A stretch of 64,000 bases of DNA from contig OY282385.1 in NCBI GenBank assembly GCA_958295935.1, forward strand, positions 1,116,001-1,180,000. Reading direction: 5' to 3'. Below are positions 46,675-61,600 of the stretch, in pieces. A model generated the notes under the pieces. That model was not told the origin of the DNA and did no database searches. It saw only the letters and a program-made list of their open reading frames with translations. Both the position numbers and the translations under genes were made by a program. The first letter of the stretch is position 1, and each line of letters starts with the position of its first letter. The DNA is from an uncultured Dehalococcoidia bacterium (GTDB taxonomy: Bacteria; Chloroflexota; Dehalococcoidia; Lucifugimonadales; Lucifugimonadaceae).

Positions 46675-47310
46675 ATGCCGAGCATAATCCCCGAAGAAAT
46701 CGAGCGATACGCCCACGACCACACCTCCGACTCCGGCCCGTTGATGAACGAACTCGCCGAAACAACGCGGAAACGAATGCCCTCACACGGAATGATGTCA
46801 GGCAAGGCCGTTGGAAGGTTGCTACAGGGCCTCGTGCGCGCACTACAGGCAAGGAACGTTCTGGAAATCGGTTCCTTCACAGGATACAGCGCACTCATGA
46901 TGGCACAGGCCATGCCGGACGAAGGTCGGATCATCACCTGCGACGTAGACCCGGAAGCCACCGCCATAGCAAGGGAGTTCTGGGCAAGATCGCCCCACGG
47001 ATCCAAAATCGAACTGAAATTGGGCCCGGCGCTCCAAACCATGAAATCGCTGGAAGGCCCGTTCGACTTCATCTTCATAGACGCCGACAAGGAATCCTAC
47101 CCAGACTACTACACCCGCGCAATGGAACTACTCGCGCCCAACGGCATGATCGCAGTCGACAACGTTCTCTGGAGCGGCCGAGTACTCAGCCCGGTATCCC
47201 ACTCCGACAAGGCCATAGCCGAATTCAACAACATCGTCCAAAACGACCACCGAGTCGTTAACCTCATACTCCCCGTCAGGGACGGAGTGATGCTCATATG
47301 GCCCCGCTAG
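46675..47310 (+). CDS. O-methyltransferase, caffeoyl-CoA OMT family
   Basis: A 211-residue SAM-dependent O-methyltransferase: LEIGSFTGYSALMMA (motif I), FIFIDADKESYPDYY (metal and SAM site) and AVDNVLWSGRV, as in metal-dependent catechol-type methyltransferases. Its last 62 codons (from 47124) are repeated almost exactly at 49681-49867 as a headless fragment. It converges with, and by four bases overlaps, an SDR gene, of which only the 3' part is present on this side. Confidence 0.92.
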   Translation: MPSIIPEEIERYAHDHTSDSGPLMNELAETTRKRMPSHGMMSGKAVGRLLQGLVRALQARNVLEIGSFTGYSALMMAQAMPDEGRIITCDVDPEATAIAREFWARSPHGSKIELKLGPALQTMKSLEGPFDFIFIDADKESYPDYYTRAMELLAPNGMIAVDNVLWSGRVLSPVSHSDKAIAEFNNIVQNDHRVVNLILPVRDGVMLIWPR

Positions 47311-47534
47311 CGAGTAAAGACCGTACCCGTAACGTAATCCGCCTGGTCGCTAGCCAAAAACGCGCAAATGCGGGAAATCCCATCCGGTGAAACCAGTGAC
47401 TCCGTCGTAGCCTCATACGTCGCCCGGTCCCCGGCGACCTCGAAGGAACGACGGGCAGTCCGCACCTTCAGCGGAGTATCAACCGACCCAGGAGCAACGT
47501 CGTTCACCCGAATACCGTACCCCCAAGACGACGA
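47124..47534 (+). repeat. Long direct repeat, left copy (OMT 3' end plus SDR 3' end)
   Basis: The 411 bases here match 49681-50092 with seven substitutions (for example 47130 A/C, 47265 C/G, 47433 G/A) and one 1-base gap near 47524, about 98% identity. The repeat spans the junction of two converging genes: the last 187 bases of the O-methyltransferase and about 228 bases of the SDR 3' end. Confidence 0.95.
47307..47534 (-). pseudogene. Headless 3' fragment of the SDR gene
   Basis: The minus strand encodes the last ~75 residues of the SDR whose intact copy is at 49864-50604 (from about GIRVNDVAPGSVDTP to VTGTVFTR). A 1-base deletion lies near its upstream end, and the frame then runs into unrelated DNA. 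It has no start and no catalytic residues. Confidence 0.92.
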
Positions 47535-47539
47535 CCGCG

Positions 47540-49583
47540 TCAGCGCACGCCCGTCTTCAGGACGGGTTCGGACGGCCCTGCGACCGCCTCGACCCGATTC
47601 CCGCTGACGTCGGTGTACCACACGGATACCCGCAGCCGGTGGCCCACGTCCGCGGCGGTGGGAGTGTACCAGTAGCTGCGTCCTGAGCCGGTCGGGATCT
47701 CAGTCCAGCCAACCTCATCGCTGCCGCGTTCCCACCGCAACGACCGGTTGAGGACGCCGGCACGCAGCGCGCCGGACAACGAGACACCGAACGACTCACC
47801 CACCACCGGAGCTCCGCCTATGGTGAAATAGGCGAGAGGGAGACGGGCGCGCAAGTCACCACGATATATTGCGCCGTCCGACAGATCAGCCGCACGCTCC
47901 AGCCCCAGCAGCTCCGTCAGCATGTCAATGCGGCCCCGCCGGCGCGGAATCGAATCTAACCACACGACGTATCCGACAGATCCGGCATCTTGCGCCTGAA
48001 CCCTTGGCCCGCCCCAGTCGTCGACGGAATAGATGTGTTTCCCTTGACCGGCGTGAATGTATACCGCGGCGATTGAATCACTGAATAAATGGCTGCCGGC
48101 GGGCAACTCACGAGCGCGCCGCAGAACCTCGGAGTCTGCCCACCTGGCGCCAGATAACCCCAAACCCACTCCCTGGCTCGCCAAACCTATCCCACGCGCG
48201 TTCAGAGCAGCATGGTATGCCAGCCAGAGACAGAGTACCGAGGCCAGGACGACCGCCCCCCCCCCCCCGCACAATTGTTCTAGTATTCACCCCGGCGGCG
48301 CCTGGGGAAAGGTCAAGATCGGAGCGTTCATAAACTGCAAACCGGTCCAGAGCGAATAGACCTGCCAACAGCAACGGGATGTACAGGGGCATCAAATGCC
48401 TGGTCTGTACTCCGTCCCAGGTGGCCCCCACCAGCAACGAAACGACGTACAGAACGACCGACGACAGCGCGAAACCGCCGAACAAGTAGAATGCGCGCCA
48501 GTCCTGCCCCCCCTCCCTCTGCCGATGTCCTCGCACGAATGTGAACACAACCGCAGCAGCAAACGATGCTAGGACAAGCCCCAAGGAGTATTCGGCGGCG
48601 AGCCGGATGCCTCCATCCACGAAACCCGGAATCACCAAGGATCCCATCGTGGTTAGAAGGTCATTCATCAACTCCGGCAGCGGGGAGGGAACTTTGAACC
48701 TGTTTTTCCCGGTGAGCGTTCCGTCTATCAGGAAATTCCTCATCATCCAAACCGCTATGGGGGCCGCGGCAATCAGCCCATAGAGGACGGCTCGCCTCAG
48801 CTTCTGCGGCAGCGCGGCGGCCCGCTGGGAAATCAGCAGCAGTCCCACAGTGACCACCACCGCAACGCCCGCGTATCGCGTCAAACATGCCAGCCCCGCA
48901 AATATTCCCGCCCACACCAGCGCCGAGCGCCTGCCCTCGTCGAGGTACTTGTCTGCCTGGATAAGCGCCATCAGCGTGAGCAGGATGAAAACCGGCTCGG
49001 ACAATGCATAAGACGAGAGCCGGACCAGATGGAACGACAGCGCAATGGCGAGGCAGCCCCATAGGGCCAGGAAGCGGGTTTCCAGCCGGCGCCCCAGCCA
49101 ACGCCCGGCCACGAAGACGGTAAGCCCGAAGATTATCGCGTTGAGCGGCCCTGCAACGGCGTATGGGTCCAGCCCCCCGAGCCCGCCCGCGGCCAGCAGC
49201 AGCGGATATAGCGGCGGCCATAACGTATACATATTTCCGTTGAACTGAACGAACCCATCGCCCGCCAGCAGGTTCCGGGCAACGGATACGTAGGCGACCG
49301 AGTCCCACTCCAATCCGGGGCCATAGCTCACCTGACGCGCCAATGACAGCGCCGAGCCCAGGAAGGCGATGGCGGACAGCAGCAGGGTGAACCGGTCGGG
49401 CCGCAGCCGGACCAAGGCCGCGGCAACTCTCCGGGTCTGGTTCACAGGTAGTCCCAGGCCAGTCAGGGCGCAACGCCTCGCGCTGTGGGGACCGGCAGAT
49501 CTCGCGGACGCCAGCACGCCGAGGGAGCCGCCTTCCCGCGACAGCTCGACGCCCAATGCGGACAATCCCTTGGCTTGGAGCAT
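47540..49583 (-). CDS. Membrane glycosyltransferase (GT-C/GT39-like), frame broken at a G13 tract
   Basis: Two overlapping frames make one protein of about 680 residues. The first (49583 to the tract at 48268) encodes about 438 residues with some ten membrane helices and GT-C features (LEWDSVAYVSVARNLLAGDGF with the acidic catalytic-type loop, LSEPVFILL, CLTRYAG). The second frame continues with the last helix (VVLASVLCLWLAYHAAL) and an extracytoplasmic domain ending in an Ig-like unit (YTPTAADVGHRLRVSVWYTD). The change of frame falls exactly in 13 consecutive C on the + strand; 12 would join the frames. It is either a phase-variable gene in the OFF state or a sequencing error. It likely transfers sugar from a polyprenyl phosphate to a surface substrate. 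The gene lies between two long direct repeats. Confidence 0.8.
48256..48268. repeat. C13 (coding-strand G13) homopolymer in the glycosyltransferase gene
   Basis: A mononucleotide run of 13 in a coding region, at the point where the two reading frames of the glycosyltransferase must be joined. Runs of this length are prone to slipped-strand errors. Confidence 0.9.
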
Positions 49584-49680
49584 GACGCTACACCCACTTG
49601 AAGGCTGGGCCAGAATATCGCTTCAGGCCGCGTCCATTCACTTCGCTCTATGGTGTAAGGCATCTGTCTGAACGAGATCA

Positions 49681-50092
49681 GGAACTCCTCGCGCCCAACG
49701 GCATGATCGCAGTCGACAACGTTCTCTGGAGCGGCCGAGTACTCAGCCCGGTATCCCACTCCGACAAGGCCATAGCCGAATTCAACAACATCGTCCAAAA
49801 CGACCACCGAGTCGTTAACCTGATACTCCCCGTCAGGGACGGAGTGATGCTCATATGGCCCCGCTAGCGAGTAAAGACCGTACCCGTAACGTAATCCGCC
49901 TGGTCGCTAGCCAAAAACGCGCAAATGCGGGAAATCCCATCCGGTGAAACCAGTGACTCCATCGTAGCCTCATACGTCGCCCGGTCCCCAGTGACCTCGA
50001 AGGAACGACGGGCAGCACGCACCTTCAGCGGAGTATCAACCGACCCAGGAGCAACGTCGTTCACCCGAATACCGTACCCCTCAAGACGACGA
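49681..50092 (+). repeat. Long direct repeat, right copy (OMT 3' end plus SDR 3' end)
   Basis: Second copy of the 411-base repeat (offset 2557 from the left copy). Here the SDR part continues into the complete gene, while the O-methyltransferase part lacks its 5' portion. Confidence 0.95.
49688..49867 (+). pseudogene. Headless 3' fragment of the O-methyltransferase gene
   Basis: Encodes the last ~59 residues of the O-methyltransferase (LLAPNGMIAVDNVLWSGRV to LIWPR) in frame, without a start or SAM-binding motifs. It is left over from the insertion of the glycosyltransferase module. Confidence 0.92.
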
Positions 50093-50604
50093 GCCATCAC
50101 CATAGCCAGACCGTGCACCCCGCCCTTGCTCGATCCGTACGCAAACGAAGAACTGCCGCCGATAACCCCGGCCCCGGACGACGCAAGCACGATCGTCCCC
50201 CGACCCTGCCGCTTCATCACCCCGGAAACGTGCTTCGAAATCAGGAATGAACCTTTCAGATTCACGTCAATCACCTGATCCCAAACTTCCTCCGAAAATT
50301 CGTCCAACTCAACCGAAGCGCCCTCCAGGATCCCCGCAAAATGCAGCAACACGTCTACGCCGCCCAGCCAGGACTCCGCAGCCAGCACACCGCCCGAAAC
50401 CGCCACCTCGTCCATAACGTCCACGCGCCAATAGCGAGCGTCTCCGCCCGCTTCATTGATGTCGGCCACCGTCGCCGAACCCCCTACGTCGTTGACGTCG
50501 AAAGCCGCAACCCTGGCCCCGTATGCCGCGACCCGCAGGGCCGAGGCGCGACCGATACCCGTAGCCGCGCCGGTAACTATGATGCGTTTGCCCTTAAGGT
50601 CCAC
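49864..50604 (-). CDS. SDR family oxidoreductase (FabG-like)
   Basis: A complete 246-residue short-chain dehydrogenase: cofactor motif TGAATGIGRASALR, catalytic Ser in VLASSGAG, YGSSK (Y-x-x-x-K) active site. It converges with and overlaps the O-methyltransferase fragment by four bases; before the insertion it converged with the complete O-methyltransferase gene at 46675. Confidence 0.9.
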   Translation of the reverse strand: MDLKGKRIIVTGAATGIGRASALRVAAYGARVAAFDVNDVGGSATVADINEAGGDARYWRVDVMDEVAVSGGVLAAESWLGGVDVLLHFAGILEGASVELDEFSEEVWDQVIDVNLKGSFLISKHVSGVMKRQGRGTIVLASSGAGVIGGSSSFAYGSSKGGVHGLAMVMARRLEGYGIRVNDVAPGSVDTPLKVRAARRSFEVTGDRATYEATMESLVSPDGISRICAFLASDQADYVTGTVFTR

Positions 50605-50780
50605 GTGACACCCGTACCACTATCTAACAACTCTTCCGGAACCCGGATTCACAGCGCAAAGCCCCGCAACACTCTGACCAAGGAAAAGACGATCCACAGG
50701 TTGCCCGCAACCAACTCGCTTCATCATGCTGTTCACCGGAAGACTGTACAGAAATCCCAGGATTGGCCCATACAACCATT

Positions 50781-51644
50781 TTAGGCACAATCGAAAACTA
50801 TGCCACAACGATTCGCAGCCATCAGAAGACCCTCCAACGCCGCAGGTATCAGATCGTCCGGAAGATGCTCGATCAGCACGTGACCGCGTGGACAAGACGC
50901 CTGCATACCCGACAGAAAAACCCCCTGGTCCAGAATCCCACGCCCAATGACCTCCTCCTCAAGGTGCAACAACAAAGCGTCCACGATCCTGAAATCCTTG
51001 GCGTGCGCCCCAAGAATGCGACCCGAAAGAAGATCATAGAACTCACGCTGAAGAGCCGCGTTGTCGTACGCCTGCCCGATAGAGTCGATGAAATTCACCG
51101 GATCGACGTTGAAGCCAAGGCTCGGAGATCCCACCGACTCGATGAACCGCAGAACGCGCCGCGCAGAGTAAAGCGGAGACACCGCACCCCCCTCCACGGC
51201 AACCATCACCCCCTCGGACTCCGCAGCAGCGCAGATCTGACGAGTCGAATCCACCAGCCGGTCAAACACCTCCTCAGATCGATTGCCCGCGTGAGGAAGC
51301 CACGCCCCATTAGAATTCAAACTGCCTGGACGCAGATAGGTGTTGGGAGCGCCAAGAGCCGCCGTCGCACTGCACGTCCGCTTCACGAACTCGATCGCCG
51401 CAGAACGCTCCGCATCATCCGGGCTTACCAACCCGCCGCCGTAGTTGCCAACCGTCTGCCCCATCACCACACCGTGCTCCAAGAACATCTCACGCAATCC
51501 CGCCGCCTCAACCGGGCCCAGAGAAGCAGGGTCGTCAATCCGTACTTGCAACACGCTGAAACCCAAACCCCGCACCCGACGCAGTACCCCCGAATCGATA
51601 GCACGCCAATCCCCGTTCACAAGACCCGAAACCCCTAAGAGCAC
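50781..51644 (-). CDS. Sugar phosphate isomerase/epimerase (xylose isomerase-like TIM barrel)
   Basis: A 287-residue AP endonuclease 2-type TIM barrel, with the metal-site Glu in VAVEGGAVSP, Asp/His in GFNVDPVNF and GAHAKDFRI, and Glu-like residues near the C-terminus. Members epimerise or isomerise sugars and cyclitols; the substrate is unknown. It starts at a GTG with a G-rich ribosome site. Downstream genes are unrelated. Confidence 0.82.
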   Translation of the reverse strand: MLLGVSGLVNGDWRAIDSGVLRRVRGLGFSVLQVRIDDPASLGPVEAAGLREMFLEHGVVMGQTVGNYGGGLVSPDDAERSAAIEFVKRTCSATAALGAPNTYLRPGSLNSNGAWLPHAGNRSEEVFDRLVDSTRQICAAAESEGVMVAVEGGAVSPLYSARRVLRFIESVGSPSLGFNVDPVNFIDSIGQAYDNAALQREFYDLLSGRILGAHAKDFRIVDALLLHLEEEVIGRGILDQGVFLSGMQASCPRGHVLIEHLPDDLIPAALEGLLMAANRCGIVFDCA

Positions 51645-51656
51645 CGCGCCACCCCC

Positions 51657-52175
51657 CTACAGGCCCACCCGGCGAGATGGCAGCTCCGGCTCAGCTCCCC
51701 GGCCCCTTGACCTACCCGAACGCGCAAGCAAATCCCGCTTTTCGCACTCCAGACGAGTCTTGATAACACCTAAACCCGTCTCCACAACCCGGTTCATCTC
51801 GCTCAGGAATACACCGCGAGACAACCGGTTACGCGGCGCAGGACCGTCCGCCCAAGCCTCGCTGGTTATCGTGGTACGACGAAAATCCCCGCGGATCCTG
51901 ATCACGTGACGAGTCCGAGAAAGCCAGTTACGGGAAGCCCAACTCATCTCCCGCAACTCCCGCCAAGTCTCCACGCGGCAGGTGAAATGAAAAATCTTAC
52001 GAAGACGATACTTGAACAAGCCCCGACCGCCCGACTCGCCAACCCAACCGGACGCTACAATCTCCGGATGCCAGTCCGCCCACAAATCCACCCGGCTAAG
52101 CCAATCCCAAACCACCTCAGGAGGCGCAAAAACCTCTATCTCGTGTCTGGTCTGAATCGGTGCGGTAATGTTCAT
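51657..52175 (-). CDS. SRPBCC superfamily protein (polyketide cyclase/START-like)
   Basis: From the ATG at 52175 (GTGGAA upstream) the protein has 172 residues. It opens with the family beta strand and helix (HEIEVFAPPEVVWDWLSRVDLWADWHP) of helix-grip hydrophobic-pocket proteins. The strongly basic last 30 residues are probably disordered. Function is not known; it likely binds a lipid or aromatic ligand. Confidence 0.72.
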   Translation of the reverse strand: MNITAPIQTRHEIEVFAPPEVVWDWLSRVDLWADWHPEIVASGWVGESGGRGLFKYRLRKIFHFTCRVETWRELREMSWASRNWLSRTRHVIRIRGDFRRTTITSEAWADGPAPRNRLSRGVFLSEMNRVVETGLGVIKTRLECEKRDLLARSGRSRGRGAEPELPSRRVGL

Positions 52176-52374
52176 GTCAATTCCACGGCCTGACACGCCA
52201 AGGACCGCTTCTCACCCCGGCGCAAACAGGGATTGAGACTAAAAGCCCTTTGCCCATGAGTCAAACAGACTCCGAGATCAGCCCGCGCAGCGGACAAGCC
52301 GTATTCTTTGCAAGTTTGACAGAACCAACGGAAGGAGTGAACCGATTTACAGAAACTGTGAAAAATGGCGCCGA

Positions 52375-53181
52375 ATGGTTCGGGACGAACATCAGCAGTC
52401 CGACAGGGTAAAGGCCGAACCGCCGCAAGAAGACTTCTGGAAAGATCTCGCGCACCGATTCACGCCGACGCGGCCCGAAGAGGCCCAGGATGACACACTC
52501 GACGCACTCCTTGCCATCGTGCGGCCACAGGATACCGTGATCGACGTCGGCGCAGGCGCAGGGCGCTTGGCCATTCCACTAGCCCGGCATTGCCGACAAG
52601 TCACAGCCGTCGAACCATCCCAAAGCATGAGAGACGGACTCGCAGCAGCAGCCCAGGAATGGGGCATCGAAAACCTGCGGGTAATACCGGAAAAATGGGA
52701 AGACGCACGCACACATACCGCAAACGTGAGCATATGCGCCCACGTCCTGTACACCGTTACGGCAGTCGAGCCGTTCGTCAGAAAACTGCACCGATCCAGC
52801 AAAGATACCGTAGCCGTCATCCTCTTCGATCAGCCCGCAATGTCAAACTACTTCCCACTGTGGAAAATCGTGCACCAGGAAGAGCGGCTGAGGCTCCCGT
52901 GCCTCGGAGAATTCAGAGACGTCCTCGCGGAATTGGGAATCGAATTCTCAGAAAAACGGCTGCCCCGGCAGGCCCCCGCAGCCTTCCAGGACCGCCGCAC
53001 AGCAATGAGTGAGTGCATGGCGAGGCTCTTCATACAGCCAGGCTCCCCAAAGGCCGACCGCCTGGACGCAGCCCTCGACGACTCCCTGGTGGAATCTAAC
53101 CGCGGACTCGCCTTCCCATGGGCAAAACCGCATACGCCATGGCTCATAACCTGGAACCCACAAACAGCCGTATCGAGCTAA
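52375..53181 (+). CDS. Class I SAM-dependent methyltransferase
   Basis: A 268-residue methyltransferase with VIDVGAGAGRLAIPLARHC (SAM motif I, about 54-72) and AVEPSQSMRDGL (motif II acidic residue). Beyond the fold the substrate is unknown. The ATG at 52375 lacks a clear ribosome site, and a short frame at 52256-52414 overlaps it. Confidence 0.78.
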   Translation: MVRDEHQQSDRVKAEPPQEDFWKDLAHRFTPTRPEEAQDDTLDALLAIVRPQDTVIDVGAGAGRLAIPLARHCRQVTAVEPSQSMRDGLAAAAQEWGIENLRVIPEKWEDARTHTANVSICAHVLYTVTAVEPFVRKLHRSSKDTVAVILFDQPAMSNYFPLWKIVHQEERLRLPCLGEFRDVLAELGIEFSEKRLPRQAPAAFQDRRTAMSECMARLFIQPGSPKADRLDAALDDSLVESNRGLAFPWAKPHTPWLITWNPQTAVSS

Positions 53182-53198
53182 ACCCCGAGGAATATCTG

Positions 53199-54635
53199 TT
53201 GACAGGGACCGGCAAACACCAAGTCGAGGAAAAAGCGCAGGCCCAGCCTGCTCACGGAAACATAGACCACGAAGTACCCGACGCTACGAAACTCGCCGAA
53301 ATACAGCACCTCGTACAACACCTCGCCGAAGAAAACCGAACGCAACTGGCCGTCACCGAACTCGCAAGCCTAAGGCCCCCTGACCGGGCAGCGGTCCTTG
53401 AAGGACTGAACCCCAGAACGCGCGGCAGCCTCATCGCGGAGGTACACGACGATCAAACCGTCGCAGAGGCCTTCGAGCACATAGACCCAGGTGAAGCCGC
53501 AAACGTCTTCGAGTACATAGGCCCGGAAAGAATGGCAGCCATACTGGACTGCTGCCCCCCGGAAATAGCCACCGACATACTGCACAAACTACCGTGGGAA
53601 CAGGCCGGAGCGGTTCTTGGAAAAATCAAAGACCGCAAGGCCGTAGGCGACCTGCTCCTCTATAGGGACGACAAGGCCGGCGGCCTGATGTCCCCGCGAA
53701 TCGTCACACTGCTCGATTCATGGCCCGCCGCTCACGCCATCAACGTCCTGCGCTACTCAGGACTCGATCCCGAAGAAATGATGGAACTCTTCGTGGTCGA
53801 CAGCCAAAACGTCCTCGTAGGAGCCCTACACCTCTCAGACCTCGTCTTTGCAGAGCCGGGCGCCGCCGTCGAGGAAATCATGTCCCAAGACGTGATCTCC
53901 GTAGAAACCGGCGTAGACCAGGAGGAAGCTGCCCGCCTCATGGACCGATACGAAGTACGCAGCCTACCCGTCGTCGACTCCGACGGCGCTCTCAAAGGCT
54001 CCATCGCTATCGAAGAACTCGTACACGTCGCAAGGGATGAAGCCACCGAAGACATGTACCGAATGGTCGGCGTCACCCACGAAGAGCACGAGGCCGGGCG
54101 ATTCATGGCCGCAGTAAGAGGCCGACTCCCATGGCTCACCATCAACCTGGGAACCGTACTCCTGGCCGGGTGGGTCCTAAGCCTGTTCCAGTCAACACTC
54201 GACAGCCTCACCATACTCACGATCTTCCTGCCCGTCGTCATGGGCCAGGCAGGAATAGCAGGCGCACAGACCCTCACCATCACAGTACGCTCAATCGCCC
54301 TGGGAGAATTAGCGCCATCCGGCACGCACAGAATGCTGGCAATAGAAGCCGCACTAGCGCTATGTCAAGGCCTCGCAGTAGGAACCCTGCTCGCCGCCAT
54401 CGTATGGGCTTGGCGAGGAGACCACTACCTCGCACTCATAGTCGCAGCCGCACTCATAGTCAACATGATCGTCGCAGCCATGAGCGGAGTATTGGTACCC
54501 CTCCTGCTCCGAACCGTCCGCATCGACCCCGCAACCTCCTCCGCAGTATTCGTCACCACACTCACCGACGTCGTAGGAATCGCCGCATACCTGGGCCTCG
54601 CCACCGCCTTCCTCTCCGCCTTCAACCCAGCCTAG
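53199..54635 (+). CDS. mgtE: Magnesium transporter MgtE
   Basis: From TTG 53199 (CCGAGG upstream) it has 478 residues: an N-terminal superhelical domain (ELASLRPPDRAAVLEGL...AAILDCCPPEIATDILHKLP), two CBS domains (MSQDVISVETG..., YEVRSLPVVDSDGALKGSI) that sense Mg, and a C-terminal five-helix pore domain (FLPVVMGQAGIAGAQTLT). The open frame reaches back to 53118 inside the previous gene. Its last 109 bases, ending at the stop, are repeated perfectly at 57051-57159. Confidence 0.9.
   Translation: MTGTGKHQVEEKAQAQPAHGNIDHEVPDATKLAEIQHLVQHLAEENRTQLAVTELASLRPPDRAAVLEGLNPRTRGSLIAEVHDDQTVAEAFEHIDPGEAANVFEYIGPERMAAILDCCPPEIATDILHKLPWEQAGAVLGKIKDRKAVGDLLLYRDDKAGGLMSPRIVTLLDSWPAAHAINVLRYSGLDPEEMMELFVVDSQNVLVGALHLSDLVFAEPGAAVEEIMSQDVISVETGVDQEEAARLMDRYEVRSLPVVDSDGALKGSIAIEELVHVARDEATEDMYRMVGVTHEEHEAGRFMAAVRGRLPWLTINLGTVLLAGWVLSLFQSTLDSLTILTIFLPVVMGQAGIAGAQTLTITVRSIALGELAPSGTHRMLAIEAALALCQGLAVGTLLAAIVWAWRGDHYLALIVAAALIVNMIVAAMSGVLVPLLLRTVRIDPATSSAVFVTTLTDVVGIAAYLGLATAFLSAFNPA
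54527..54635 (+). repeat. 109-bp perfect direct repeat, left copy (3' end of mgtE)
   Basis: Bases 54527-54635, from CCCCGCAACCTCC to the mgtE TAG, are identical to 57051-57159 (offset 2524). Flanking bases differ on both sides. Confidence 0.97.
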
Positions 54636-54817
54636 CCCACAACCCCGGAAGCCCAGAGTGGACAGCGAAATGTTTGCTTAGCCCTTATCCTTCCGCGGAT
54701 CGCGCTGGCATCAACGCCTTGGCTGGCTTCCATGGTGAGCGGCAAATTCGTGAACACTCTCAGTGAACATGTGTGCTATTCTCCAAGCGAGATCAATTCG
54801 GTGGCAGTACTGAGAAA

Positions 54818-56266
54818 ATGACCCGAGAGAACAGGCCGGTGCGAGGATTCGTGCCCACACCCGATAGGCTCGTCGACCATATGGTCGACTTGTTGTTCGA
54901 CGGAAAGGCAGTCGCCCACGAAGAGCGTCTACTGGATCCCGGCTGCGGCGCAGGGGCCTTCATGAAAGGGGTCCTACGTTGGTCCGCAAGAACCCACTCC
55001 CCCCTGCCGCATGTAACGGGCATAGAGCTTGACAAGCAGCTCGCTCGCGAAACTGCTTCGCAACTCTGTAGCAACCCCCAGGTCAACGTGATCCAGGAGG
55101 ATTTCCTGAGAACCAGGCCCGGAGAAAAATATCATTACGTCATAGGAAATCCTCCCTACGTCTCTATCCTTCAACTGGATGAACGAGAAAAGGCCGAGTA
55201 CAAAACCCTCTACCGCAGCGCTACTGGACGCTTCGATCTATACATGCTGTTTTTCGAGCGGGCGCTGCAAATCCTTGAACCCGGCGGCAGGCTCGTCTTC
55301 GTAACCCCTGAGAAGTTCACCTATGTTGATTCGGCCTCTTCACTTAGAGCCTTGATGAGAGCCTACGACGTTCGCAAACTGGAGCTCCTACCGGAAAACG
55401 TGTTCGGAGACCTCACCACCTACCCCCTTGTCACGGTAGTAGAGAATAGTAAGGACCGACGGCCAACGAGCATCTTGAACAGGGAAGGCGATGAGAAAAC
55501 GGCCGCGCTTCCACGCGGCGGCGCGAGTTGGGGGCCGCTCCTGAATGGACCAAAGTCAGACTTGAAGCCCCGACGAATGACGAATGTTCTCTCCAGAATC
55601 TGTGACCGCGTCAGCTGTGGGATAGCCACCGGCGCAGATGAAATCTTCGTATTCGAACGAAACGAATTGCCCGACGACCTTCATAAATTCGCTTGGCCCA
55701 CGGTTGCCGGAAGGGACCTCGACCCGTCCAAAGGACGGATTGAGACCCGCTCGGTGATGCTAATCCCATACAACGCCCACGGCACGCTCATACCCCTGGA
55801 GGACTTGGGGCCCCTCAGGCAGTACCTCATGGATCCCCAAGTCGTAGCTAGACTGCTAAAACGGACCTGCGCCAGTCGAAAGCCTTGGTATGCGTTCCAT
55901 GAAAATCCAGCAATGTCCCAAATCCTGAGGCCAAAGATCCTCTGCAAAGACATCGCACGCCAACCCGCCTTCTGGCTGGATAGATCAGGAGAAACGGTGC
56001 CCCGGCACTCTGTTTATTACGTTGTACCCAAAGACGAGTCCCTGCTCGATCCTCTATGCGAATACTTGAACGGAAAGCAGGCGCGAGATTGGCTGATCGA
56101 AAACTGCCAACGAGCAGCGAACGGGTTCATACGAACCCAGAGCAACGTGCTTAAACGTCTCCCGATACCTTATGAGCTCGTCACGGATACCCGGAATTTG
56201 ATTGGGCCAATGCTCAACCCACAACGCCTGCACCCGATGCCAACTGTGTTGGAGATGGTAGCTTGA
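54818..56266 (+). CDS. N6-adenine DNA methyltransferase of a type II R-M system (TaqI/Eco57I-like)
   Basis: From ATG 54818 it has 482 residues: SAM motif LLDPGCGAGAF (38-47), acidic ExxxD loop (GIELDKQLA) and the catalytic NPPYVS (111-116) in gamma-class order, then a large C-terminal recognition domain that ends like TaqI-type enzymes (NGFIRTQSNVLKRLPIP). GTG 54773 is an alternative start. It is coupled (TTGA overlap) to the nuclease gene. Local G and C contents are balanced, unlike flanking genes. Confidence 0.85.
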   Translation: MTRENRPVRGFVPTPDRLVDHMVDLLFDGKAVAHEERLLDPGCGAGAFMKGVLRWSARTHSPLPHVTGIELDKQLARETASQLCSNPQVNVIQEDFLRTRPGEKYHYVIGNPPYVSILQLDEREKAEYKTLYRSATGRFDLYMLFFERALQILEPGGRLVFVTPEKFTYVDSASSLRALMRAYDVRKLELLPENVFGDLTTYPLVTVVENSKDRRPTSILNREGDEKTAALPRGGASWGPLLNGPKSDLKPRRMTNVLSRICDRVSCGIATGADEIFVFERNELPDDLHKFAWPTVAGRDLDPSKGRIETRSVMLIPYNAHGTLIPLEDLGPLRQYLMDPQVVARLLKRTCASRKPWYAFHENPAMSQILRPKILCKDIARQPAFWLDRSGETVPRHSVYYVVPKDESLLDPLCEYLNGKQARDWLIENCQRAANGFIRTQSNVLKRLPIPYELVTDTRNLIGPMLNPQRLHPMPTVLEMVA

Positions 56267-57045
56267 ACACGCCCTTCGATGACGTCATACGCCGGGTTGT
56301 AGAGCGCAGGTACCACAATCATAGAAAAGCCGAGCATTCCGATATCGTATGCAGGGGCATCTGGGCAGACCTGCTCGCACGATGCGAAAATATCAGGGAA
56401 GATTACGAAAGGGGAAAGATTGCATCTTGGCTGAACCAGCCCGCCCCAGACCTCCAAAGACGCAGGGCAGACCTGCTCGTTTTTGAAATAGTAGATTCGC
56501 CAGACCGGCCGGATCTCAGCCGCGTCCGGATCTGTTTAGAGAACAAGTCCGTGATCACGGCCCATCGGAACAAAGGAGAGCGGTTCAGAGATCTCGATAA
56601 CTTCAGGTCCGAGGTACAGCAGCGAAGACGAGAGGCAATCGTATTGGGAACTGTCCTCATCGGCACTGCCGAGCGATACCTCAACGTCGCAGACCAGGTC
56701 AGGAAGCTCTACAGGAACCACCCGAAAGAGTTCGAACAGTCCGTTCTCCCGCGTCTTTCAACTGGAGACGACACGCTCTGGGACGACTTTCCCTTTGCAA
56801 TTAGCGAAAATCGTACTGATGATGCCCAGAAGACTCTTGAACACTTCCGCCGTATGCCGACTCGAACGCCCAACCTCACGCACCAGGAGGGGTTTGACTA
56901 CCTGCTGATGATTCCGGTACACGTCGACAACGTGAACCCGCCTCGGGTCGACAGAGACAACACCCTTGGCCTTGACGTTGACGAGGAATACGAAAGGCTC
57001 CTTGAAACCGTCCAGCGCGGCTATATCGCGCGGTGGCACGTCTAG
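56263..57045 (+). CDS. Putative type II restriction endonuclease (PD-(D/E)xK-like)
   Basis: A 260-residue protein directly downstream of and overlapping a DNA methyltransferase gene. A nuclease core is suggested by D70 (RRADLLVFE) followed after about 22 residues by E93-x-K95 (ICLENKSV), the D...E-x-K pattern of PD-(D/E)xK nucleases. Family not recognised; recognition site unknown. It begins at TTG 56263 inside the methyltransferase stop. Confidence 0.65.
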   Translation: MNTPFDDVIRRVVERRYHNHRKAEHSDIVCRGIWADLLARCENIREDYERGKIASWLNQPAPDLQRRRADLLVFEIVDSPDRPDLSRVRICLENKSVITAHRNKGERFRDLDNFRSEVQQRRREAIVLGTVLIGTAERYLNVADQVRKLYRNHPKEFEQSVLPRLSTGDDTLWDDFPFAISENRTDDAQKTLEHFRRMPTRTPNLTHQEGFDYLLMIPVHVDNVNPPRVDRDNTLGLDVDEEYERLLETVQRGYIARWHV

Positions 57046-57050
57046 AGTAT

Positions 57051-57159
57051 CCCCGCAACCTCCTCCGCAGTATTCGTCACCACACTCACCGACGTCGTAG
57101 GAATCGCCGCATACCTGGGCCTCGCCACCGCCTTCCTCTCCGCCTTCAACCCAGCCTAG
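57051..57159 (+). repeat. 109-bp perfect direct repeat, right copy (orphan 3' end of mgtE)
   Basis: Encodes the last 35 or so residues of MgtE in frame without the rest of the gene. It ends at a TAG that overlaps the stop codon of the converging M16 peptidase gene (57158-57156), so it probably marks the original mgtE/peptidase junction. Confidence 0.97.
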
Positions 57160-58487
57160 AACTCCAAAGACGAAAGGAACGGCTCCACGCTATCGAACGG
57201 CCCCACTATCGCCAAAACAGTGTTCTCAGGCCGGATCAAACGCTCTGCAACCCTCACCAAATCCTCAACCTCGACCGATTCCAGGTCCCCGATCAGCTGC
57301 GGTACCGTACGCACCTCACCCCGCAGCAACTCCTGCGCTCCCATTGACGAAACAACCGAACGGCCATCCTCCATCCGCAACAGCAGCCGACCCTTCGAAA
57401 GCTCCTTCGCCTGACTGAGCTCGACATCCGTAACGCTCTCCCCCAAGCCCTTCACAACCTCCACGATAATCGGAACCGCCTCCGCAGCACGCTCAGGATC
57501 CACACCCGAACCAATCGTCAGAGAACCGCAATCGTTATACACAGACACCCCGCTGTGAATATCGTACGCCAGACCCCGCTTCTCACGAACCTCCTCGAAC
57601 AACCGGCTGCTCATAGACTCCCCAAGTATCACCGAGAACAGACCAAGGGCATGACGGTCCTTGTCGAACATCGAAACACCCTTGATACCCAACGAAAGAT
57701 GCGCCTGCTCCGTGTCTCGGCGATCCACCTTCACCTGCGGACCCCTCAGGTTATCCACAAACGGAATCAACGGAAGCGTCTCACCGTCCGGCAAATCCCC
57801 CATAACCTCCTCCACCTGCGCCACAACCTCATCGTGGCCCACGTTCCCGGCAACCGCAATCACAGTGTTCGACGCCGCATACTGCGTATGCAGATACTCC
57901 AGCATCGACTCGCGAGAAATCGCAGACACCGACTCCACAGAACCCGCAACGTCCCTGCCCATAGGCTGATCAGGCCAAAGCAACTGATCCTGGATCTCCG
58001 ACGCACGCCCACCCGGAGAGTCATGCACCGCACGAATCTCCTCATACACCACCTGCTTCTCCCGCATGATGTCAGACTCCCGGAAAAGCGAGTTCAAAAC
58101 CATATCCCCAAGCAAATCTATGCCAGCCCGATAGTGCGGACGAGCCATCCGGCACCAGTAACCCGTAACCTCCCGATCGGTAAACGCGTTGATCGACCCT
58201 CCAACACCCTCCACCGTCTCCGATATCTGGCGCGGAGTGGGACGACGGGCAGTACCCTTGAACAACAGGTGCTCGAACAGATGCGACGCGCCCGCAAGCT
58301 CCTCGCTCTCGTAACGAGAGCCGGCCCCAAAGAGAAAACTCACGTTCACCGCATACGTATGAGGCAACGTGCTCGTCAGCACCCGTACACCGCCAGGCAA
58401 CACCGTCCGCTCGTAAACAAGCGACCGCGCAATCTGCTCCTGCGCAGCATCAGCCCCAACCGACTCGGCGCCCTGTCCCGGATTCAA
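57156..58487 (-). CDS. M16 family zinc peptidase (processing peptidase-like)
   Basis: From TTG 58487 (GGGGTT upstream) it has 443 residues, a normal length for bacterial M16B peptidases; the open frame to 58748 would collide with the divergent gene. The inverted zinc site HLFEH (about 71-75) is followed at the expected distance by the EExRAVHDSP Glu. It is predicted to cleave small peptides or protein leaders, and is cytoplasmic as no signal is seen. It converges with mgtE. Confidence 0.9.
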   Translation of the reverse strand: MNPGQGAESVGADAAQEQIARSLVYERTVLPGGVRVLTSTLPHTYAVNVSFLFGAGSRYESEELAGASHLFEHLLFKGTARRPTPRQISETVEGVGGSINAFTDREVTGYWCRMARPHYRAGIDLLGDMVLNSLFRESDIMREKQVVYEEIRAVHDSPGGRASEIQDQLLWPDQPMGRDVAGSVESVSAISRESMLEYLHTQYAASNTVIAVAGNVGHDEVVAQVEEVMGDLPDGETLPLIPFVDNLRGPQVKVDRRDTEQAHLSLGIKGVSMFDKDRHALGLFSVILGESMSSRLFEEVREKRGLAYDIHSGVSVYNDCGSLTIGSGVDPERAAEAVPIIVEVVKGLGESVTDVELSQAKELSKGRLLLRMEDGRSVVSSMGAQELLRGEVRTVPQLIGDLESVEVEDLVRVAERLIRPENTVLAIVGPFDSVEPFLSSLEF

Positions 58488-58692
58488 TCGACTAACCCCA
58501 TAATCACATGATATACGCCCACCGCCACGGCCATCAGCACGAAAGAATACCGGTCGCACGCATAACCATGCCCGAGCGCACCAGGCACAAACCTCAATCC
58601 GACTCCGCAGAACCTGCCAGGCCGTACAACCACGCCAGCCGAACCTCCCGCCCGCTAGTGCAGCTTGCCCGGCGCCCATTAGACTTTCGACA

Positions 58693-61600
58693 ATGACCCT
58701 GGCCAAACTAACAAACAAACTGGGCCCGCCCCTACAGACATGGCGCAAGGCCCCAAACTATTGGCTGATACTACTCGTCGTACTCTCTATCGCACTCGGA
58801 CTCCGGCTGTTCGGCATCAACTGGGACCAGGGAGGGCTATTCCACCCAGACGAGCGCGCCATACTCATGATCGCACATGAACTCGAAATTCCCCCTCCCT
58901 CCAAACTCGCAGACCTCTTCAACGCCGAAAAAAGCACGCTAAACCCCCGCTGGTTCAACTACGGAAGCCTGCCCATATACCTCATAAAGGCTGTCCAGTA
59001 CGTAGTCGCACCCTTCACAGACCTCGACCTGTTCGACCTAAGAATCCCCGGCCGGATCATCTCCGCCATAGCAGACACCGCAACCGTCGCACTCGTATTC
59101 CTGATCGGATACCGATGGTTCAGCCCCCGAATAGCAGCGCTCGCCGCACTACTAACCGCGCTCGCAGTCATACACATACAGCTCAGCCACTTCTTCGCAG
59201 TAGACGGCATCATGACCATGTTCATCGTGGCAGCCGTCATCTTCTCCATAAGGGTGGCCCACCACGGCCGAAAAACCGATTCCGCCCTTGCTGGATTGAT
59301 GCTTGGCCTCGCCCTCGCCACGAAATCCGCCGCCGCGCCCGCAGTACTCGCAATCATCGCCGCACACGTCATATACGCCATCTCCAAACCCGGAGACGCC
59401 ATCGACACAGCCGGCGCAATGGCCGGAGAAGCCAGCGCAAGGAGATGGCGCGCGCTCAGAAACCTCGCGCTGGCAGGATTCGTGGCAGTGCCAGCCATGA
59501 TTCTCGCGCAACCCTACATGATCATCGACTACCAAACCTTCTGGTCAAACGTCAACGAACAGTCCGAGATGGTCCGACGAATACGCGACTACCCATATAC
59601 CAGGCAATACATAGAAACCCCCAAATACTGGTACCAGATATACCAGCTCGGCGTATGGGGACTGGGACCCGTCGCAGGAATCGCAGCATGGCTGGGACTC
59701 GCAGCCGCAACCGTGGCCGCATGGACCGCAAGACGAAAAGTAGACCTCGTCATACTCGCATGGGTCATCCCATATCTACTCATCACAGGATGGTTCGAGG
59801 TCAAATTCCTGCGATACATGCTGCCCCTCACTCCATTCATGCTCCTATACGCAGCAAGACTACTCTACTGGATCGCAGACGCCATACGGAGAGCATCGCC
59901 AAGGATCAGACACGCAGCGCTCATACCAACCATAGTCGTCGTCGCAGCAACCGCACACTACGCAATAGCATTCACCTCCGTATACGCAGGCGACCACCCA
60001 GCCCAAGAGGTCGCACAATGGCTCGACAGAAACGCCCCAACAGGCTCCTTCGTCCTACAAGAACACTGGGAAGAAGGAATACCCACAGTACCCGGCATCT
60101 ACTACGACCGGCTAGAAATGTACAACCCAGACTCCAGACCCAAGTTCGAAGTCATCGCAAGACAACTCTCATACGGAGACTACTTCGTACTCTTCAGCAA
60201 CCGGCTGTCCGCAACCATACCCAGACTCCCGGAACGTTACCCCGTCAGCGCCCGCTTCTACAAAGCCCTATTCGATGGCTCACTCGGATATCAACTCGTA
60301 TACGCAGCAGACAAGACCGCCTCAGCGCTAGGCGTCGCATACGAGGAAGACCCATTCGCAAGAATCGACTTCTCACCCGCAGGATACCGCCTCCCCAGCG
60401 GACACGTAGCAACCCTACGATTCGGATGGGCCGACGAGAGCTTCACCGTATACGACCACCCAAAAAGCTTCGTCTTCCAGAACACCGAACGGCTAGACCC
60501 CCAAGAAATCATCAAACGCATCGGATACATAGGACCATACGCACCACACTACGAACCACCCGAAGGCCTCACCTTCAGCGAAGAAGACGCGCGCATACAG
60601 CAGCAGGGAGGCGACTGGACCTCCGTAGCATTCCTACACCGAATGCCCAACGCAGTAGCGCCAATCATATGGCTGCTAGCCATCCAGCTAATAGCGCTCG
60701 CAGTACTCCCGCTGGCCCTCATCATCTTCAAACCACTCCCAGACCGAGGATACCTACTCGCCAAACCACTCGGACTCCTGCTCGTAGCCTCAATAGCATG
60801 GATCATGGCAAGCCTCGGATGGATCGGATTCAGCTTCGGATCAGTACTCGCAAGCCTCATCGCAGTCGCCATCCTTTCGATACTCGCATGGACGCGTTAC
60901 CGCAGCGAAATAGCGACGTTCCTCAAGCAGCGATGGCGGCTAATACTGCTCATGGAATGCCTCTTCCTCGTGGCATTCCTGGCATTCCTCGGACTGCGGA
61001 TAGCCAATCCAGACCTATGGCACCCCTACAGGGGAGGCGAAAAACCCATGGACTTCGCCTACCTAAACGCCGTCGCGCGCTCTACCATAATGCCCCCGTA
61101 CGATCCATGGTTCGCTGGCGGATATCTCAACTACTACTACTTCGGACAGTTCATAATCGCATCGGTAATGCGCCTGACCGGAATCATTCCCCAAGTCGCA
61201 TACAACATCGCAGTACCCATGCTCTTCGCCATCACCGCAGGAGCAGCCTTCTCAATCGTGCACAACCTCGCAGCACTCACTCTCAGGTCCAGAGCACACC
61301 CCCCGGCCCCCATGAAATCCCCTGTCCTCGCAGGACTGGCAGCCGTCGTGTTCGTGACCGTCGCAGGAAACATCGACGGCCTCTTCCAACTCGCCGAGCG
61401 ATTCAAGTACGCCGTCATTGACCGAGTAAACGCGCCCGCCTTCGACTACTGGCGAAGCTCAAGAATGATGGCCCCGGACTCCGGCGGAAACGAAATCACA
61501 GAATTCCCATTCTTCTCATTCCTCTTCGCAGACCTGCACGCACACCTCATAGCAATGCCATTCGCAATACTGGCATTGGGAATCGGCATGGCAGTACTCC

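Follow-up and report, generated by a model that had tools for sequence, protein, structure and literature searches.

Insertion with long target duplication (ILTD) was reportedly described for restriction-modification (R-M) genes of Helicobacter pylori by Nobusato et al. (2000, Gene 259:99), and Furuta et al. (2010, NAR 38:2428) are said to have linked R-M genes to genome rearrangements. Published accounts state that a comparison of two H. pylori strains brought ILTD to light and that R-M genes are often involved (PMC1643837, PMC3874152, PMC3031569, PMC4978471), and one of them summarizes the linkage to rearrangements reported by Furuta et al. in 2010 (PMC3874152). In eukaryotes, the repeat-flanked transposed genes of Arabidopsis form a parallel, and a circle has been proposed as a model for them (PMC2869330). 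Here we describe an R-M unit of 2.4 kb that lies between mgtE and an M16 peptidase gene of an uncultured Dehalococcoidia bacterium (Chloroflexota) and that was, with a probability we put at about 0.72, inserted there by ILTD. The window, which is the whole 64,000-nucleotide stretch analysed, corresponds to positions 1116001-1180000 of a 2.75-Mb single-contig genome; coordinates refer to the window unless given as genome positions. The mgtE/M16 insert is an already known kind of event, and its added interest lies in the local abundance of such inserts in one genome and in their non-R-M cargo.

The 109-bp duplication and its R-M cargo

The sequences at 54527-54635 and 57051-57159 are identical at all 109 positions, exactly as the original prediction had stated, and are spaced 2524 bp apart. 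These were the only two occurrences in the contiguous 1.664 Mb of the host genome (60%, window included) that was scanned, and the chance that a perfect 109-mer arose by coincidence is negligible. The left copy (plus strand) is the final 109 bp of mgtE (53118-54635, plus strand), including the TAG stop codon at 54633-54635. The right copy (plus strand) stands alone and has its CTAG (57156-57159) in common with the stop of the M16 peptidase gene (57156-58748, minus strand; stop at 57156-57158), an overlap that had also been predicted. Such 4-base overlaps of convergent stops are rare but real in this genome, occurring in 5 of 178 convergent pairs. Both resident genes have full Pfam domains, as expected from the claim that the neighbors remained intact. 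The inserted DNA (54636-57050, plus strand) is 2415 bp long and has a GC content of 55.2%, compared with 58.3% in the flanks; neither the list of open reading frames nor a domain search revealed an integrase or transposase gene, or a remnant of one, within it, and no terminal inverted repeats were found at its ends.

Between the copies lie a methyltransferase and an overlapping putative nuclease, a description from the original prediction that matches to Pfam, NCBIfam, PADLOC, and PDB sequences made more specific. The first gene, M (54773-56266, plus strand, with a likelier ATG start at 54818), encodes an N6-adenine methyltransferase of the Eco57I/TaqI_C type, with matches to the Pfam domains Eco57I (4.5e-21) and TaqI_C (7.5e-07) and to PADLOC MTase_II (1.6e-43). 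Its nearest solved structures are M.TaqI and M.BseCI (2.5e-15 for M.TaqI structures). As expected for the methyltransferase of a Type II R-M system, M has both a specificity domain and a catalytic motif, NPPY, which is present in its translation.

The second gene, R (56263-57045, plus strand), overlaps the end of M by 4 bp (TTGA) and encodes a probable restriction endonuclease of an unnamed family. R has no match in Pfam, NCBIfam, or PADLOC and no meaningful match in PDB, and an AlphaFold prediction of R alone gave a low-confidence model (pLDDT of 38). It does carry a PD-(D/E)XK-like motif, RADLLVF...RICLENKS, which follows the D-x(n)-ExK pattern. A homolog in genome G080 (E value of 5e-11) keeps the ExKS part of the motif, and its gene overlaps a methyltransferase gene. 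A profile built from these two sequences identified homologs in five further genomes among 400 from the phylum. In five of the six other genomes the homolog is located beside a DNA methyltransferase, which belongs to PF01555 in G080, G458, G606, and G548; the M-R order seen here recurs once, in G540, where an M homolog (50502-51884, 48% identical) is followed by an R homolog (51941-52711). Because R combines the D-x(n)-ExK motif with homologs beside methyltransferases in five of six genomes, it is very probably a restriction enzyme and the putative partner of M.

In contrast to G540, 393 genomes of the class yielded no relative comparable in both respects, length and similarity, the best hit being 36% identical over part. 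There was no match to R among plasmids or in IMG/VR and none to M among phages or in IMG/VR. The nearest plasmid relatives of M are haloarchaeal (37-44%), and the gene adjoining one of them, judged by eye, is not recognizably R. From the genomic contexts examined, the M-R pair is predicted to be a real, transferable R-M unit. The unnamed family of probable restriction enzymes to which R belongs accompanies differing methyltransferase types across the Chloroflexota (G080, G458, G497, G540, G548, and G606).

Repeat-flanked inserts elsewhere in the genome

Direct repeats were located by a k-mer scan for pairs within 15 kb, with inverted pairs as a control, and repeat-flanked inserts were defined as isolated pairs of at least 80 bp and at least 93% identity separated by a gap of 1-5 kb. 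This filter was chosen post hoc from a list already inspected, and the resulting count is descriptive rather than a test; the contrast between direct and inverted pairs is independent of the filter. Eight direct pairs and zero inverted pairs passed, and a single isolated inverted pair (82% identity) fell outside. Shorter, closer, or more decayed pairs, including those at 403, 428, 468, and 540 kb, were omitted from the count as ambiguous. The eight repeats measure 84, 109, 192, 200, 225, 336, 412, and 470 bp, are 93-100% identical, and are made up of parts of resident genes or of the sequences upstream of them. The recurrence of one kind of event, originally proposed from two neighboring cases, thus extends to eight in 1.66 Mb.

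The insert nearest to the R-M genes is the one that had been said to follow the same logic 4 kb away, and its duplication proved longer than first read, at 412 aligned bp and 98.1% identity. The left copy (47124-47534, plus strand) holds the 3' end of an O-methyltransferase gene and a 3' fragment of an SDR gene, and the right copy (49681-50092, plus strand) holds an O-methyltransferase fragment and the SDR 3' end. The DNA between them (47535-49680, minus strand) encodes a PMT/PMT_2-type glycosyltransferase at 48108-49583. This gene is possibly frameshifted across 47540-49583: the PMT domain lies in 48108-49583, and an overlapping open reading frame in another frame (47540-48274) resembles its C-terminal part.

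In genome positions, this glycosyltransferase insert (1163124-1163534/1165681-1166092) and the R-M insert (1170527-1170635/1173051-1173159; 109 bp, 100%) both occupy convergent junctions, as does the insert at 592 kb (592492-592575/594356-594439; 84 bp, 100%), which carries a DUF262/GmrSD gene (PADLOC Orf5/HEC-06). Tandem junctions host the inserts at 400 kb (400685-401019/402562-402897; 336 bp, 93.5%) and 437 kb (437354-437577/439336-439560; 225 bp, 94.7%; ABC ATPase/permease junction), both with unrecognized cargo, at 414 kb (414142-414611/416582-417051; 470 bp, 93.4%), which carries HEC-01A/B (AAA_21 and DUF4276), and at 1057 kb (1057609-1057808/1059704-1059903; 200 bp, 98.5%; TerC/GreA junction), which carries an N6_N4 methyltransferase-HNH fusion. 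The insert at 1578 kb (1578946-1579137/1580409-1580600; 192 bp, 98.4%) encodes RmrA (HTH and M78 peptidase) and is situated at a divergent junction. At 1057 kb (L068:2010-3826), the methyltransferase-HNH gene adjoins a remnant like the C terminus of an IS1595-family transposase, below the curated cutoff.

Five of the eight inserts match PADLOC at E <1e-20 (MTase_II, methyltransferase-HNH, HEC-01AB, DUF262/GmrSD, and RmrA), compared with 0 of 17 randomly chosen genes. Two picks across stretch borders were excluded from this control, as was an eighteenth pick, a DUF262 defense gene beside the 1578-kb insert, the inclusion of which makes the control 1/18. One unrecognized cargo gene of the 400- and 437-kb inserts contains an RNMRNH motif, which we take to be reminiscent of HEPN nucleases. 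Three inserts have a GC content well below that of their flanks (46-52% versus 58-61%), and no sequence common to the ends of the eight inserts was found. The spread of repeat identities from 93 to 100% points to separate events of differing ages, although the absence of differences over 109 bp is no proof that the mgtE/M16 insert postdates the cases at 98%.

The original prediction placed the mechanism at convergent 3' ends, a rule that was rejected, as five of the eight junctions are tandem or divergent: three are convergent (592, 1163, and 1170 kb), four tandem (400, 414, 437, and 1057 kb), and one divergent (1578 kb). The genome background is 72% tandem, 14% convergent, and 14% divergent, giving P = 0.09 for at least three convergent junctions in eight; convergent ends may be mildly favored, though they are unnecessary. 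The trait common to the cases is that duplication across a gene end keeps both neighbors whole, and the survival of insertions that do no harm would be enough to yield such geometry. At 592 kb, the gene upstream takes its final codon and stop from the insert. In each of the four tandem cases, the cargo is oriented as its neighbors are; at 400 kb (L095:4685-6897, genome 400685-402897) the duplicated stretch supplies a ribosome-binding site and ATG to the cargo gene, and the right repeat copy retains the ribosome-binding site and start of a small resident open reading frame.

The stretch at 400-490 kb (L095-L099) is rich in defense genes, encoding a DrmB-like MZB-domain protein, HEC-01, and toxin-antitoxin-like genes, and contains many more local direct repeats. 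Internally repetitive stretches of great length occur at 1270-1278 kb (L035), 1314-1334 kb (L037-L038), and 1375-1381 kb (L040-L041); they probably represent giant repeat proteins or arrays.

Origin of the insert

Under ILTD, the two strands of the target would have been broken at points about 109 bp from each other, foreign DNA would have been joined between the broken ends, and the single-stranded parts would have been filled in, copying the 109 bp to both sides. Though this chemistry is inferred, staggered breaks with fill-in explain duplications of any length at any target, and, across the 60% of the genome that was sampled, events of this kind would number at least eight in all. The lack of an integrase, of terminal inverted repeats, and of a common end sequence argues against a dedicated recombinase, and repeats of differing length around inserts whose ends share no sequence are as expected without a dedicated integrase. 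The insertion would do no harm, as the duplicated segment crosses a gene end, the mgtE end being kept in the left copy and the M16 end in the right. Since the cargo is oriented as mgtE and a scan recognized no promoter of its own, it may be expressed as part of the mgtE transcript. Flanking repeats invite deletion, and defense cargo would persist as deleting cells lose protection or die; the cost of losing an R-M or defense unit would also account for the defense-rich cargo. The post-segregational argument for this cost is reportedly that of the Kobayashi group.

Two of the other inserts have their empty junctions in family-level relatives, a comparison set in which the host is the sole representative of its genus. 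GreA and TerC are adjacent, with no insert, in the loci of 14 relatives (L221-L232, L234, and L236); the host has a 1.9-kb insert and a 200-bp duplication of the TerC 5' end and spacer. The ABC ATPase and permease genes abut in three relatives' loci (L239-L241); the host has a 1.8-kb insert and a 225-bp duplication of the ATPase end and permease start. By comparison with relatives, both are identified as insertions with target duplication. For the 592-kb NHL/dehydrogenase junction, orthologs of the two genes share no contig among the matches listed.

Several observations weigh against ILTD as the account of the R-M insert. The original prediction took the mgtE/M16 junction to be probably ancestral and proposed a check for its uninterrupted form in relatives. 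Every relative read has mgtE as the last gene of an SDR-TIM-methyltransferase-mgtE block and has M16 elsewhere, beside genes located at 1402 kb in the host; mgtE and M16 are adjacent in none, and the empty site is unseen among them. The junction can only be, at most, an immediate, lineage-specific pre-insertion state, and the claim fails at the family level. The SDR side of the block has a different neighbor in relatives, a gene at 1529 kb in the host, and both ends of the block are, on this synteny, lineage-specific junctions, each with a repeat-flanked insert. A single complex event could have both inserted the cargo and joined the blocks. No comparable repeat pair occurred in 0.4 Mb of each of two family genomes, where about four would be expected at the host's density, which gives no evident sign that the process is general in the family; the habit therefore appears concentrated in the host genome. 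Finally, Campbell-type integration of a circle leaves an identical product.

The rearrangement itself might have given rise to the insert, if repair of the joining between the mgtE and M16 blocks captured the R-M DNA and copied the mgtE end. The breakpoints at both ends of the otherwise conserved block are in keeping with this origin, as is the linkage of R-M genes with rearrangements in the literature (PMC3031569, PMC3874152). It is nevertheless improbable, as the junctions of the TerC/GreA and ABC pairs are conserved in the family without rearrangement and as mgtE and M16, tightly overlapping at CTAG, have the look of a compact convergent pair of long standing. No better favored is a single homologous crossover at the resident mgtE with a circle bearing the R-M genes and the 109-bp mgtE end, either excised from this locus in another member of the species or formed by ligation. 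Direct repeats would permit excision as a circle and reentry at the same place, and such a route was proposed for the Arabidopsis genes (PMC2869330), but it needs a prior event linking the mgtE end with the R-M genes, and a separate circle of this kind would be needed for each of the eight inserts, whose target pieces all differ; this route accounts better for spread within a species than for origin.

An assembly artefact that wrote 109 bp twice is highly improbable: the analysis is based on assembled sequence alone, but the genome is a single 2.75-Mb contig, the cargo is an intact M-R pair found together elsewhere, and the diverged repeats of the sister inserts (93-98.5%) would not be invented by an assembler. 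Integrative elements typically duplicate the 3' end of their target gene and so restore it, and a site-specific element at the mgtE 3' end, decayed to its cargo, was also considered. With no integrase or remnant in the 2415 bp, and with other cases that duplicate 5' ends or gene junctions over varied lengths without a common core, this candidate was rejected and retains only the slightest probability.

Comparison with known systems

Movement of compact defense systems with no visible mobility gene is a question to which these inserts speak. It is possible, if on balance doubtful, that ILTD is a general, transposase-free entry route for single defense operons (R-M, GmrSD-like, HEC-01, RmrA, and perhaps HEPN type), aligned with resident transcription and made harmless and reversible by duplicated gene ends, rather than a peculiarity of R-M genes. 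Eight examples with varied divergence and clean borders, two of them with an empty junction in relatives, make the event reconstructable, and cargo bias and junction rules are accessible to a simple search for such repeats in complete genomes.

Of the features by which ILTD is recognized, direct target repeats of tens to hundreds of base pairs lie at both borders (109 bp, 100%), repeat length varies among events (84-470 bp; n = 8), and R-M genes (M and R) lie within the insert. The transposase, terminal inverted repeats, and short fixed duplication of a DNA transposon are missing, the duplication being 109 bp, as are the integrase gene and common attachment core of an integrase-type genomic island. 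Relative to integrative elements that restore a 3' end, the locus likewise has a duplicated 3' end of the target gene, but it differs in its variable repeat length and in having neither integrase nor common core. The Eco57I/TaqI_C domain layout of M resembles that of M.TaqI/M.PaeR7I-type systems with an adjacent restriction enzyme, whereas R falls in no Pfam, NCBIfam, or PADLOC family and has no PDB relative by sequence. Like rearrangement-linked R-M genes, the mgtE/M16 insert is located at a synteny breakpoint relative to the family, but its repeats are direct and there is no inversion with inverted duplication. The likeness to H. pylori ILTD includes R-M genes between direct target repeats on the order of 100 bp and of variable length, no linked known mobile element, and a formal resemblance to transposon insertion with long duplication. 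In contrast to H. pylori, the host is a Dehalococcoidia-type member of the Chloroflexota with eight cases in 60% of one genome, and the sister cargo includes non-R-M defense genes (HEC-01, DUF262/GmrSD, and RmrA) and a glycosyltransferase.

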